Shown one piece after another: positions 36,380 to 43,237 of a DNA stretch of 64,000 bases (position 1 is the first letter of the stretch; the number at the start of each line of letters is the position of its first letter). The DNA is taken from the NCBI GenBank assembly GCA_945863115.1, contig CAMAYZ010000002.1:91237-155236 (forward strand), read 5' to 3'. Origin of the DNA: Bifidobacterium breve. GTDB taxonomy: Bacteria > Actinomycetota > Actinomycetes > Nanopelagicales > Nanopelagicaceae. The translations under genes were made by a program, and so were the position numbers. The notes below the pieces were generated by a model. The model was not told the origin of the DNA. It was given only the letters and a program-made list of their open reading frames with translations, and did no database searches.

Positions 36380-37648
36380 CTATTTAGCAACCCATAATGG
36401 ATTAGATTTTGGCTTTGATAAGACCCAGTCATAAACATCCAAAGTTTGGCGAGCCGTATTTTCCCAACCAAATTTCTTTGCGTGATCAAGTGCGCCCATA
36501 GATAACAGGATTCGTCGTTGTGGTTCGGCAATTAGACGTGAAACAACCGAGGCCCAAGCTTTTGAATCGTGACCATCAACCAAAATTCCAGAAATTCCAT
36601 CTGACACTGCGGTGCGAAGTCCACCCACAGCACTTGCAATCACCGGTGTTCCGCATGCTTGTGCTTCTAGTGCAACTAAACCAAAGCTTTCAGAGTATGA
36701 AGGAACGCAGACTAAATCTGATGCGCGATACCAATCAGCAAGTTCACTTCTAGATACTGGCTCTTTAAAATGAATTAAATCTGCAACTCCCAAGAAGGTC
36801 GCAAGCTTTGCTAAGCGATCTGGTTCGTTGATACCAGTACCGGATGCGCCACCCATAATCACAAGGGCAAGGTTCGATCGCAGATGCGGAGCATGTGCCA
36901 CTAATTCTGCAACTGCACGCACCAAAACTTCTGGACCTTTGTGTGGCTGTATTCGACCAACAAACATCAACATGATTGCATCTGGTGCGATATCCAAAAT
37001 GTTTCGGGCGCTAGCTTTTCCGTGTCCGGGTGTAAAGCGTTGCAAGTCAACGCCAGGTGTAACAACCTTTACACGATCGGTATCGGCGCCATAAAGTGAG
37101 ACCAAGCTTGCGGCTTCGGCATCAGTGTTTGCGATTAAAGCTTTTGCGTTTTGAACAATTTGTTCTTCACCAAGCGCGCGAATCAATGGTTCTGGGATAT
37201 CACCTTCGGCAAGTGCTTGATTCTTTACCTTTGCCATCGTGTGCATTGTGTGAACAAGTGGAACACCTGTGCGCTCTGAAATCATCCAACCAAGTTGTCC
37301 GCTAATCCAATAATGCGAATGAATAATGTCGTAATAATCATTTGGCTTTGCACTTTGATGTTCCATAAATGCATGTGTCAGCGCACTTATCTGTGTTGGT
37401 AATTCCTCTTTAGTCAGCGCACCAATTGGTCCAGCTTCTAAATGATGAACCGTTACACCGTTTGCGATTTGAACTGCATCAGCTAAACCAGATTTATCTG
37501 CGCGAGTAAAAATATCTACTTCAACACCGGCATTTGCCATCTTGATTGAATTTTCGATTACATAAACATTCATTCCACCGGCATCGCCCATGCCTGCTTG
37601 TTCCAGTGGAGATGTATGAACCATTAGCGTTGCAATGCGACTCTTCAT
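36380..37648 (-). CDS. mshA: D-inositol-3-phosphate glycosyltransferase
   Basis: MVHTSPLEQAGMGDAGGMNVYVIE; DIIHSHYWISGQLG; PSYSESFGLVALEAQACGTPV. Confidence 0.93.
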   Translation of the reverse strand: MKSRIATLMVHTSPLEQAGMGDAGGMNVYVIENSIKMANAGVEVDIFTRADKSGLADAVQIANGVTVHHLEAGPIGALTKEELPTQISALTHAFMEHQSAKPNDYYDIIHSHYWISGQLGWMISERTGVPLVHTMHTMAKVKNQALAEGDIPEPLIRALGEEQIVQNAKALIANTDAEAASLVSLYGADTDRVKVVTPGVDLQRFTPGHGKASARNILDIAPDAIMLMFVGRIQPHKGPEVLVRAVAELVAHAPHLRSNLALVIMGGASGTGINEPDRLAKLATFLGVADLIHFKEPVSRSELADWYRASDLVCVPSYSESFGLVALEAQACGTPVIASAVGGLRTAVSDGISGILVDGHDSKAWASVVSRLIAEPQRRILLSMGALDHAKKFGWENTARQTLDVYDWVLSKPKSNPLWVAK

Positions 37649-39199: not shown

Positions 39200-39238
39200 T
39201 GTCTAAGGGTAATGCCCTCAGCGAGTAGAGTCTCGCCC

Positions 39239-39604
39239 ATGAAAAGTTCAAAGTTAGTCGTGAAAGTAATGGCCGGAGCGAATGATCCCGAGCGCTGCGC
39301 ACAAGCATTTACCGTTGCATCAACTGCACTTGCTAGTGGCGCCGAAGTTTCACTCTGGCTTACTGGTGAGGCCGCATGGTTTGCCGTCCCAGGAAAATGT
39401 GAAGAATTCGAATTACCGCACTCTGCAAAATTAGCTGATCTGCGCGATGCAATTCTGGCTGCTGGAAAAATAACTCTTTGCACGCAATGTGCAGTTCGAC
39501 GTGGAATTAATGAAGGCGATCAAATCCCTGGAATTGTTATTGCTGGTGCTGCAAGTTTTGTTGAAGAAATTATGCAAGCCGGCGTGCAAGCACTTGTTTA
39601 CTAA
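39239..39604 (+). CDS. DsrE family protein
   Basis: KLVVKVMAGANDPERCAQAFTVASTALASGAEVSLWLTGEA; LCTQCAVRRGI. Confidence 0.85.
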   Translation: MKSSKLVVKVMAGANDPERCAQAFTVASTALASGAEVSLWLTGEAAWFAVPGKCEEFELPHSAKLADLRDAILAAGKITLCTQCAVRRGINEGDQIPGIVIAGAASFVEEIMQAGVQALVY

Positions 39605-40516: not shown

Positions 40517-40930
40517 TTAGGGCTTGTTAAAGCAAGTTTCGCAACGCCCTGCAATAGCCAAGTGTGCAAGGTCGGTGTGGAAGCCATATCCATCGAGAAG
40601 TGATTGCGTAAATGATGCAGTCGCATCGATCGGAACCTCGATGATTGTTCCGCAAGATTCGCAATTCAAGTGTGCATGAATTTCTTCAGTTGATGCGTGA
40701 TAGCGAACGCCACCATGCCCAAGGTGTGAATGTTGAACTAAGCCAACATTTTCCAAAGTTTCTAAGTTGCGATAAACCGTCGAAAGATTAATTCCAGGAT
40801 GCGTTAACTTAACTTTTTCTGCAACTTCTTCTGGTGTCGCATGTTCAAGTGCGCGCACAGCAGCTAAAACTAATTCGCGTTGTGGTGTTAGGCGAAGTCC
40901 GACATCGCGTAACTCGTGTTTATCAGCCAT
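40517..40930 (-). CDS. Fur family transcriptional regulator
   Basis: LRLTPQRELVLAAVRALEHATPEEVAEKV; LSTVYRNLETLENVGLV; HAHLNCESCGTIIEV. Confidence 0.95.
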   Translation of the reverse strand: MADKHELRDVGLRLTPQRELVLAAVRALEHATPEEVAEKVKLTHPGINLSTVYRNLETLENVGLVQHSHLGHGGVRYHASTEEIHAHLNCESCGTIIEVPIDATASFTQSLLDGYGFHTDLAHLAIAGRCETCFNKP

Positions 40931-40959
40931 GGTTAATTCTAACTTGGATAGTAAAGAAA

Positions 40960-41406
40960 TTACTTAACTGCACGGAGGCCAAGGAGATAAATCTCGCAGC
41001 CCAAGCAGAAATTGAACGCTGCATTTAGAAACGCTGCGAAGAGAGCAAAACCAACGGCCACTGTGAAGAGGACTGGAATTGATAGAAGTGAACCAGCAAG
41101 TGCAACCACTGCAAAAATTAGCCCAACGCTCTGAGCAAATTGTGGTGGACGTGCATCTTCAGTAATGACTTCGCCCTTAAGTCTTGGCTTCACAAACTTC
41201 TTAAACAAAAATGCATAAGGTGTCTTTGCAGGACCAGCGAATGCACCAATCGCGAAGACTGCCAACTGAATTGCAATTAACGCAGCTGATTGAGTTACCA
41301 ACGCTGCTGCCAGAACTAAAGTTGTGATTACTGCCGAGAACCGTGGTCCACGAGCATCAATTAGATTTGCTTTTGATTTAACACTTGCTTCATTTAGAAC
41401 TGCCAT
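40960..41406 (-). CDS. DUF4395 family membrane protein
   Basis: IDARGPRFSAVITTLVLAAAL; GPAKTPYAFLFKKFVKPRL; FCLGCEIYLL. Confidence 0.88.
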   Translation of the reverse strand: MAVLNEASVKSKANLIDARGPRFSAVITTLVLAAALVTQSAALIAIQLAVFAIGAFAGPAKTPYAFLFKKFVKPRLKGEVITEDARPPQFAQSVGLIFAVVALAGSLLSIPVLFTVAVGFALFAAFLNAAFNFCLGCEIYLLGLRAVK

Positions 41407-41426
41407 TTTTAATTCCTCTGTTAGTT

Positions 41427-41484
41427 GTCGAATAATTTGTAAAACTAAAACTTCTTGTTGCGTTTTTAGTTAATTACATTCGAC
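41427..41484 (-). promoter_or_regulatory. Long interrupted stem-loop overlapping the end of a leader ORF, upstream of DUF4395
   Basis: Paired arms GTCGAAT/ATTCGAC, GTAA/TTAC and AACTAAAA/TTTTAGTT. Confidence 0.6.
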
Positions 41485-41557
41485 AGAGTGAACCGACAAG
41501 GCGGCCAAAATCAATATGGCGACGCTTTGTTAAAAAGACTGGTTCAAATTTGAGCAC
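41474..41557 (-). CDS. Putative actinobacterial leader peptide (27 aa)
   Basis: GTG start; MLKFEPVFLTKRRHIDFGRLVGSLCRM; matches the LTxRRHVDL-x-R-x-CR pattern of actinobacterial leader peptides found near thiol/sulfur genes; absent from the ORF track. Confidence 0.75.
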   Translation of the reverse strand: MLKFEPVFLTKRRHIDFGRLVGSLCRM

Positions 41558-41610
41558 GGGATAAGTGTAAGTAAGCAATAAGCAATGTGCCACTTGCGAA
41601 AGATTTGCAC

Positions 41611-42024
41611 TTAGTGAATTGCGTTTACCGCTGCCAAAACTTGCGAGCGCTTCGGTGTTCCCATCGCACGCCCGACTTCGACACCTGCCGCATTCAAAAA
41701 GAGCGTTGTTGGCGTTGATCGGATATCTAGCTGACGCACTAATTCCAGGTGGGATTCGGCATCGATATGGGCATATCGAACATCCGGCATTGTCTTCACC
41801 ATGTCCTCTAGCAGTGCCTTAGTGGCTCGACATGGCGAGCAGAAGGCCGAGGAGAACTGCACCATAGTGACGCGAGAGCCAAGTTCAACCCCGATTACCG
41901 AGGCATCTAGCTTCGGTCCATTGACCGTCTTTTTCCTACGAAACTCACCTCTGCTGCGGGTATACCAAACACCAAATGCGATGGCCAAGGCCAGCACAAC
42001 AACGAGTGGAGTCAATGATTTCAC
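41611..42024 (-). CDS. Membrane-anchored thioredoxin family protein
   Basis: N-terminal [32 protein letters not shown]. Confidence 0.92.
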
Positions 42025-42763: not shown

Positions 42764-43237
42764 ATGCGCCATATTCTTAAGTTGCATCGTTCGCTATTAG
42801 ATCCAATCCCACAAACATCAAATAACATTGAGATTTCAACTTTCTTGCCCTCATTACATAAAGAAGAGTGGCTTGCATTAAATAATAAAATCTTCGAAAA
42901 GCACCCAGACCAAGGCAATTGGGGAATGGCTGATCTGGAAAATCGGATGGCTGAAAGTTGGTTTGATCCAGAGGGATTCTTTATTGCACTACATAACAAA
43001 AAAATTATTGGCTTCTGTTGGATGAAAATTCACCACGATTTTGTAAACCAAGATCCAATCGGCGAAATTTATGTAATCGGTGTTGATCCAGAGAACAAAC
43101 AGACCGGTCTCGGTAAAGCCCTTGCAATAACTGGTTTGAACTACTTAACTTCAAAATCCCTGAAGCAAGCAATGCTTTATGTTGATGCCGATAACGCACC
43201 AGCCCTTGCAATGTATCAAGGCCTAGGCTTTAACTAA
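42764..43237 (+). CDS. mshD: Mycothiol synthase-like GNAT acetyltransferase (single domain)
   Basis: FEKHPDQGNWGMADLENRMAESWFDPEGFFIAL; GEIYVIGVDPENKQTGLGKALAITGLNYL; LYVDADNAPALAMYQGLGF. Confidence 0.8.
   Translation: MRHILKLHRSLLDPIPQTSNNIEISTFLPSLHKEEWLALNNKIFEKHPDQGNWGMADLENRMAESWFDPEGFFIALHNKKIIGFCWMKIHHDFVNQDPIGEIYVIGVDPENKQTGLGKALAITGLNYLTSKSLKQAMLYVDADNAPALAMYQGLGFN

Follow-up and report, generated by a model that had tools for sequence, protein, structure and literature searches.

The short upstream open reading frame (uORF) between a thioredoxin-fold gene and a DUF4395 gene on the minus strand is, near certainly, a genuine conserved leader peptide, and we propose, with a probability of about 0.62, that the element it belongs to is a cysteine-responsive translational attenuator of DUF4395 (Table 1). 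By computation, the uORF is conserved in relatives and its peptide is under selection, the promoter before it keeps its spacing, the hairpin at its end is kept across clades, and a ribosome at the leader Cys codon is predicted to open the DUF4395 ribosome-binding site (RBS). Cysteine is likely to be the signal; that it acts through Cys-tRNA, and in the direction given below, we infer, and DUF4395 presumably has a role in sulfur or persulfide handling. The odds that opening of the RBS is the output step as described are somewhat better than even. Throughout, the window is the whole 64,000-nt stretch of DNA that was analysed.

In the proposed mechanism, transcription would start at or beside the leader GTG and ribosomes would consequently load straight onto the uORF. 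With ample Cys-tRNA, they would complete the uORF and depart, and the Leu-Cys-Arg-Met-stop codons would then pair with RNA immediately 5' of the DUF4395 Shine-Dalgarno sequence and with part of that sequence itself, keeping translation low. When Cys-tRNA is scarce, a ribosome would pause as the Cys codon occupies its A site and would cover the 5' arm of the hairpin with its footprint; the hairpin would open, and DUF4395 would be translated.

Table 1 Features of the leader locus and its surroundings in the window.
Feature	Position	Strand	Basis
Operator-like inverted repeat TGCAAATCTTTCGCAA	41594..41609	(-)	sequence; full repeat in relatives
-10 box TACACT, 6 nt before leader GTG	41564..41569	(-)	sequence; homologue spacing
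Leader uORF, 27 codons + TAA, MLKFEPVFLTKRRHIDFGRLVGSLCRM; GTG start at 41557-41555, TAA at 41476-41474	41474..41557	(-)	ORF present as written
Single Cys codon TGT, third codon from end of leader	41483..41485	(-)	sequence
Hairpin 5' arm: Leu-Cys-Arg-Met-stop codons + AACTAAAA	41464..41488	(-)	folding, arm comparison
Hairpin 3' arm TTTTAGTTTTACAAATTATTCGAC	41427..41450	(-)	sequence, folding
Shine-Dalgarno region ACAGAGGAA, with ACAGAG complementary to Leu-Cys CTCTGT	41413..41421	(-)	sequence, pairing
DUF4395 membrane protein, proposed controlled gene	40960..41406	(-)	PF14340 E=2e-41
Thioredoxin-fold protein with CxxC, upstream gene	41611..42024	(-)	PF00085 E=2e-10
Fur-family regulator; own -10 TAGAAT at 40936-40941	40517..40930	(-)	PF01475

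A leader peptide of the cysteine type under purifying selection

The preliminary description of this locus had reported a minus-strand GTG ORF with a Cys codon and had assigned it to the actinobacterial Cys-type leader peptides. We indeed found the ORF and its TGT codon, and judged by its sequence it is a leader of that type. The peptide gave a full-length, 19-position match to the NCBIfam model NF042934 'putative leader peptide' (cis_reg_atten; E 4.9e-5) and a match to NF042933 Ms5788A (E 1.7e-4), and it carries near its C-terminus the RRxxDxxR...C motif by which we tested for the actinobacterial Cys leader peptides of these models. Among representative leaders of the order, 24 of 26 matched NF042933 at E<=0.1. 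The window peptide scored below the curated NCBIfam cutoffs (22.8 bits vs 27 for NF042934 and 21.2 vs 45 for NF042933), and the run of Cys codons that is a feature of the Ms5788A type is absent from it, there being one Cys; for these two reasons we regard it as a variant of the mycobacterial leader type. An Rfam search of the window returned three tRNAs only, with no match to a riboswitch or leader family.

Of the 90 DUF4395 loci that we read from relatives within the order, 69 had a matching uORF upstream of the gene (a few further loci were truncated), mostly at a distance of 44-68 nt from it. The named relatives of the DUF4395 gene come from Candidatus Nanopelagicales and Planktophila genomes, which makes that order the most likely origin of the window. 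All 69 leaders share RR, D, R and the last Cys of the core without exception; this Cys is encoded by TGT in 65 of them and by TGC in four, and the leader core holds one Cys in 54 and two in 15. Over these leaders pN/pS was 0.275 in the leader frame, compared with 1.12 and 3.12 when this DNA was read in the two shifted frames, and because the ratio is low only in the leader frame, the peptide itself is under purifying selection. An alignment of relatives, which the preliminary description had proposed as a check, thus upholds the peptide frame (pN/pS rounding to 0.28). The leader also extends beyond these loci. Searched with a profile of these leaders, 195 of 296 genomes of the order gave a match at E<=0.05, and at E<=0.01 so did 263 of 395 genomes sampled from the class. 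Loci L126 and L127, from a different family of that class, likewise have a leader of this kind before DUF4395, which is followed there by a sulfurtransferase-like gene.

Conservation of the peptide block raises the question of why more than the Cys codon alone is kept. One answer would be nascent-peptide arrest, in which TKRRxxD[FY]xR acts in the exit tunnel and the ribosome arrests at the C-terminal Cys or at the stop codon; such arrest, modulated by cysteine, thiol or release, would open the hairpin, and the sensor would be more than just the Cys codon. Selection on the residues that lie 6-15 codons before the Cys, where RR, D and R are invariant and synonymous codons are free, points in this direction, as do the recurrence of the block in the rhodanese and cysK leaders described below and the fact that a single Cys suffices in 54 of the 69 leaders. 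However, the block is also found in the mycobacterial Cys-leader models, where cysteine codons have been reported to be likely essential (PMC9094748), and we consider arrest by the peptide an unlikely explanation. A single Cys codon is, for its part, a weak sensor beside runs of Cys codons, which counts against the cysteine-responsive attenuator. Nascent-chain arrest and codon-specific attenuation might also be combined in a peptide-assisted one-codon cysteine sensor, with TKRRxxDxxR making the ribosome arrest-prone, a possibility that we hold only tentatively and at low odds.

A predicted hairpin from the Cys codon to the DUF4395 Shine-Dalgarno sequence

In the predicted hairpin, TGTCGAATGTAA..AACTAAAA pairs with TTTTAGTTTTAC..ATTCGAC. 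It starts at the leader Cys codon and ends at 41427, which leaves 20 nt to the DUF4395 ATG (41406), in agreement with the long stem-loop, entered by the last codons of the ORF, that had been described before. In addition, CTCTGT (the Leu codon plus TGT, 41488-41483) is complementary to ACAGAG (41421-41416), and as ACAGAG overlaps the Shine-Dalgarno sequence AGAGGA, the DUF4395 RBS is predicted to be closed as well. Compared with dinucleotide shuffles of itself, the predicted transcript (41557-41374) has the more stable fold (z -2.22, 3/200). When the RNA is cut back to 41472 onward, so that the leader end is missing, the Shine-Dalgarno core is left free and folding does not exceed random expectation. 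Across 66 distinct loci, the stretch between the Leu codon and the start of the gene had a mean z of -1.80, and the shuffle p was <0.05 in 45% of them.

The RBS hairpin is conserved clade by clade and starts exactly at the Cys codon; the sequences of its arms vary by clade (GTCGAATG/CATTCGAC, ACTAAAACT/AGTTTTAGT, TAGTTG/CAACTA and others). Own arms gave a mean duplex energy of -11.74 kcal/mol, whereas permuting the arms over 15 clusters gave -7.26 (sd 0.56), and 0 of 20,000 permutations were as good as own arms. Clusterings into 17 and 15 clusters were used, and a coarser 4-cluster version gave p 0.04; because the clusters are in part related by descent, these permutation p values serve as a guide and not as exact probabilities. 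The preliminary description had also looked to relatives for conservation and compensatory changes in the stem. This expectation was borne out across clades, where the stem is kept and the arms fit their own partner, but not within the close g12 leaders, where pair counts showed no excess of covariation over the shuffle control.

A hairpin at this position could in principle act on transcription, if it, or Rho sites unmasked 3' of the uORF, halted RNA polymerase unless a ribosome stood at the uORF end. An inner hairpin like AACTAAAAAC/GTTTTTAGTTTT also follows some cysK leaders, and Rho-dependent control has been proposed for mycobacterial cys leaders (PMC1262725), both of which favour such transcription attenuation. 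However, no U-tract follows the hairpin consistently across clades, no terminator-like site was found at the window hairpin, terminator-like hairpins are few at gene ends in the window, and in most clades the pairing bears on the RBS, which together make this output quite improbable. A classical terminator attenuator, with a terminator hairpin carrying a U-tract and an exclusive anti-terminator, was considered separately and rejected, as this arrangement was not found.

Predicted opening of the RBS by a ribosome at the Cys codon

We modelled a ribosome paused at the Cys codon by removing the RNA already covered, and the mean cost of opening the DUF4395 region from -22 to +6 was 4.0 kcal/mol, compared with 9.5 kcal/mol in free RNA; the cost dropped by >1 kcal/mol in 60 of 68 loci. 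The earlier proposal that a ribosome at the Cys codon governs the stem and with it DUF4395 expression thus gains support from folding. When the leading edge was moved codon by codon, the cost stayed at ~9-10 until about the Leu codon, fell over the Leu-Cys codons and reached its floor two to three codons past the Cys codon. With 16 nt covered, counted from the Leu codon on, 3.84 kcal/mol was released vs 0.56 in shuffled hairpin regions, and a 28-nt footprint mask used in place of truncation gave a similar fall, from about 9.4 to 5.5. With the ribosome paused at the RR codons, the DUF4395 RBS stays closed in the model, and a ribosome within ~three codons of the Cys, or at the stop codon, opens it equally, so that the model fits a pause at either codon. 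As judged by folding, the element thus has the feature of the Ms5788A type that a ribosome at the Cys codon prevents the RBS-closing structure.

A predicted leaderless promoter before the uORF and its retention in leader-less loci

A sigma-70 consensus scan found no promoter, and a test for leaderless -10 boxes was used instead. TANNNT was present 6-7 nt before the uORF start in 68 of 69 homologues, whereas among all A/GTG of these loci the share is 5.6%, and from this spacing the leader uORF is predicted to be leaderless, another feature of the Ms5788A type.

The leader is absent from a number of related DUF4395 loci, which counts against the regulatory reading. Constitutive translational coupling, in which the uORF merely delivers ribosomes and the hairpin shortens the distance with no cysteine regulation, draws on that short uORF-gene distance (44-68 nt in most loci) and on the direct leaderless promoter often kept by leader-less DUF4395 loci, but it is very improbable, since the invariant Cys at a fixed position and the strong peptide conservation are left unexplained.

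As a separate observation, nine leader-less loci (L012, L017, L018, L032, L034, L069, L072, L086 and L091) have a leaderless -10 box directly before DUF4395 and mostly keep the operator-like inverted repeat described below, a pattern of leader loss or gain with the promoter retained.

Relation to known cysteine leaders

In mycobacteria, leaderless polycysteine sORFs attenuate the downstream gene, with an elongation speed that depends on cysteine (PMC9031893; also PMC9094748); mycobacterial Cys leaders had been noticed in PMC4633059 and predicted in PMC1262725. The mycobacterial polycysteine sORFs Ms5788A and Ms4527A (Canestrari et al. 2020, doi 10.1111/mmi.14498) are reported to have, like the present element, a leaderless uORF, the RRxxDxxR block, a Cys codon adjoining the stop, sulfur target genes and a proposed pause-dependent attenuation of the downstream gene; unlike those sORFs, the leaders studied here have one Cys codon in 54 of 69 cases, with no run, and DUF4395 as the target. 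Judged by its anatomy, then, the window element would work like the mycobacterial polycysteine sORFs. It likewise resembles the Cys leaders before cys operons (PMC1262725, 2005), which are also short upstream ORFs of Actinobacteria with Cys codons close to their stop; that study reported runs of Cys and no hairpin that was conserved, whereas here a hairpin kept across clades overlaps the Cys codon. The attenuator would widen the range of cysteine-leader control beyond mycobacteria, to freshwater actinobacteria with small genomes (probably Nanopelagicales), and would give DUF4395, on which there is almost no literature, a regulatory link to cysteine and sulfur metabolism.

Related leaders and an operator-like repeat at sulfur genes

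A second Cys leader is present in the same genome (locus L096, G000:C6:62552-62614; MILIKRRVIDYCRITSTSC and stop), with Cys as the last codon. It precedes an exported rhodanese, and by eye a YeeE/YedE-like coding sequence adjoins; a Pfam search of the YeeE/YedE-like fragment tested gave no match. In several sister genera, Cys leaders whose one to three Cys codons lie close to the stop stand before cysK-cysE (loci L137-L143). That these leaders sit in front of cysteine and sulfur genes speaks for cysteine as the signal. RBS closure comparable to that at DUF4395 was looked for in the rhodanese and cysK leaders and was not found, which suggests that the sensor is common and that the output step differs.

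Upstream of the uORF promoter, at a near-fixed distance, the inverted repeat TGCRA-N5-TYGCAA occurs in 60 of 68 leader loci, and it is kept in most leader-less loci that retain the direct promoter. In the genome of the window it has few sites (reversed control 0), including that in the window and those at G000:C1:68266, G000:C6:62399 and G000:C6:62505; two sites lie at the rhodanese leader and another between moeZ and a FasR-like TetR regulator. In relatives the repeat is also found upstream of cysK; the reversed control reaches up to 5 in several of them, so that single repeat sites there are unreliable. It is possible that the repeat sites mark a sulfur regulon with a putative regulator. By eye, loci L264, L268 and L269 also have a repeat ~120-130 nt upstream of actinorhodopsin-like genes, which may be chance.

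Neighbouring genes

The preliminary description had allowed for control of the downstream fur gene by the leader, and this part of it is not upheld. TANNNT was present 5-8 nt before all 68 fur starts found in related loci (5-6 nt in the rows inspected), a leaderless spacing which suggests that fur is served by a leaderless promoter of its own. Partial co-transcription of fur may occur; nothing ties fur to the leader. The thiol and sulfur neighbourhood noted earlier was recovered, with thioredoxin, mshA, mshD, YgfZ and DsrE genes. Near the leader locus in the window are the mycothiol genes mshA (36380-37648, minus strand) and mshD (C-terminal part, 42764-43237, plus strand), and a DsrE-family gene lies at 39212-39604 on the plus strand.
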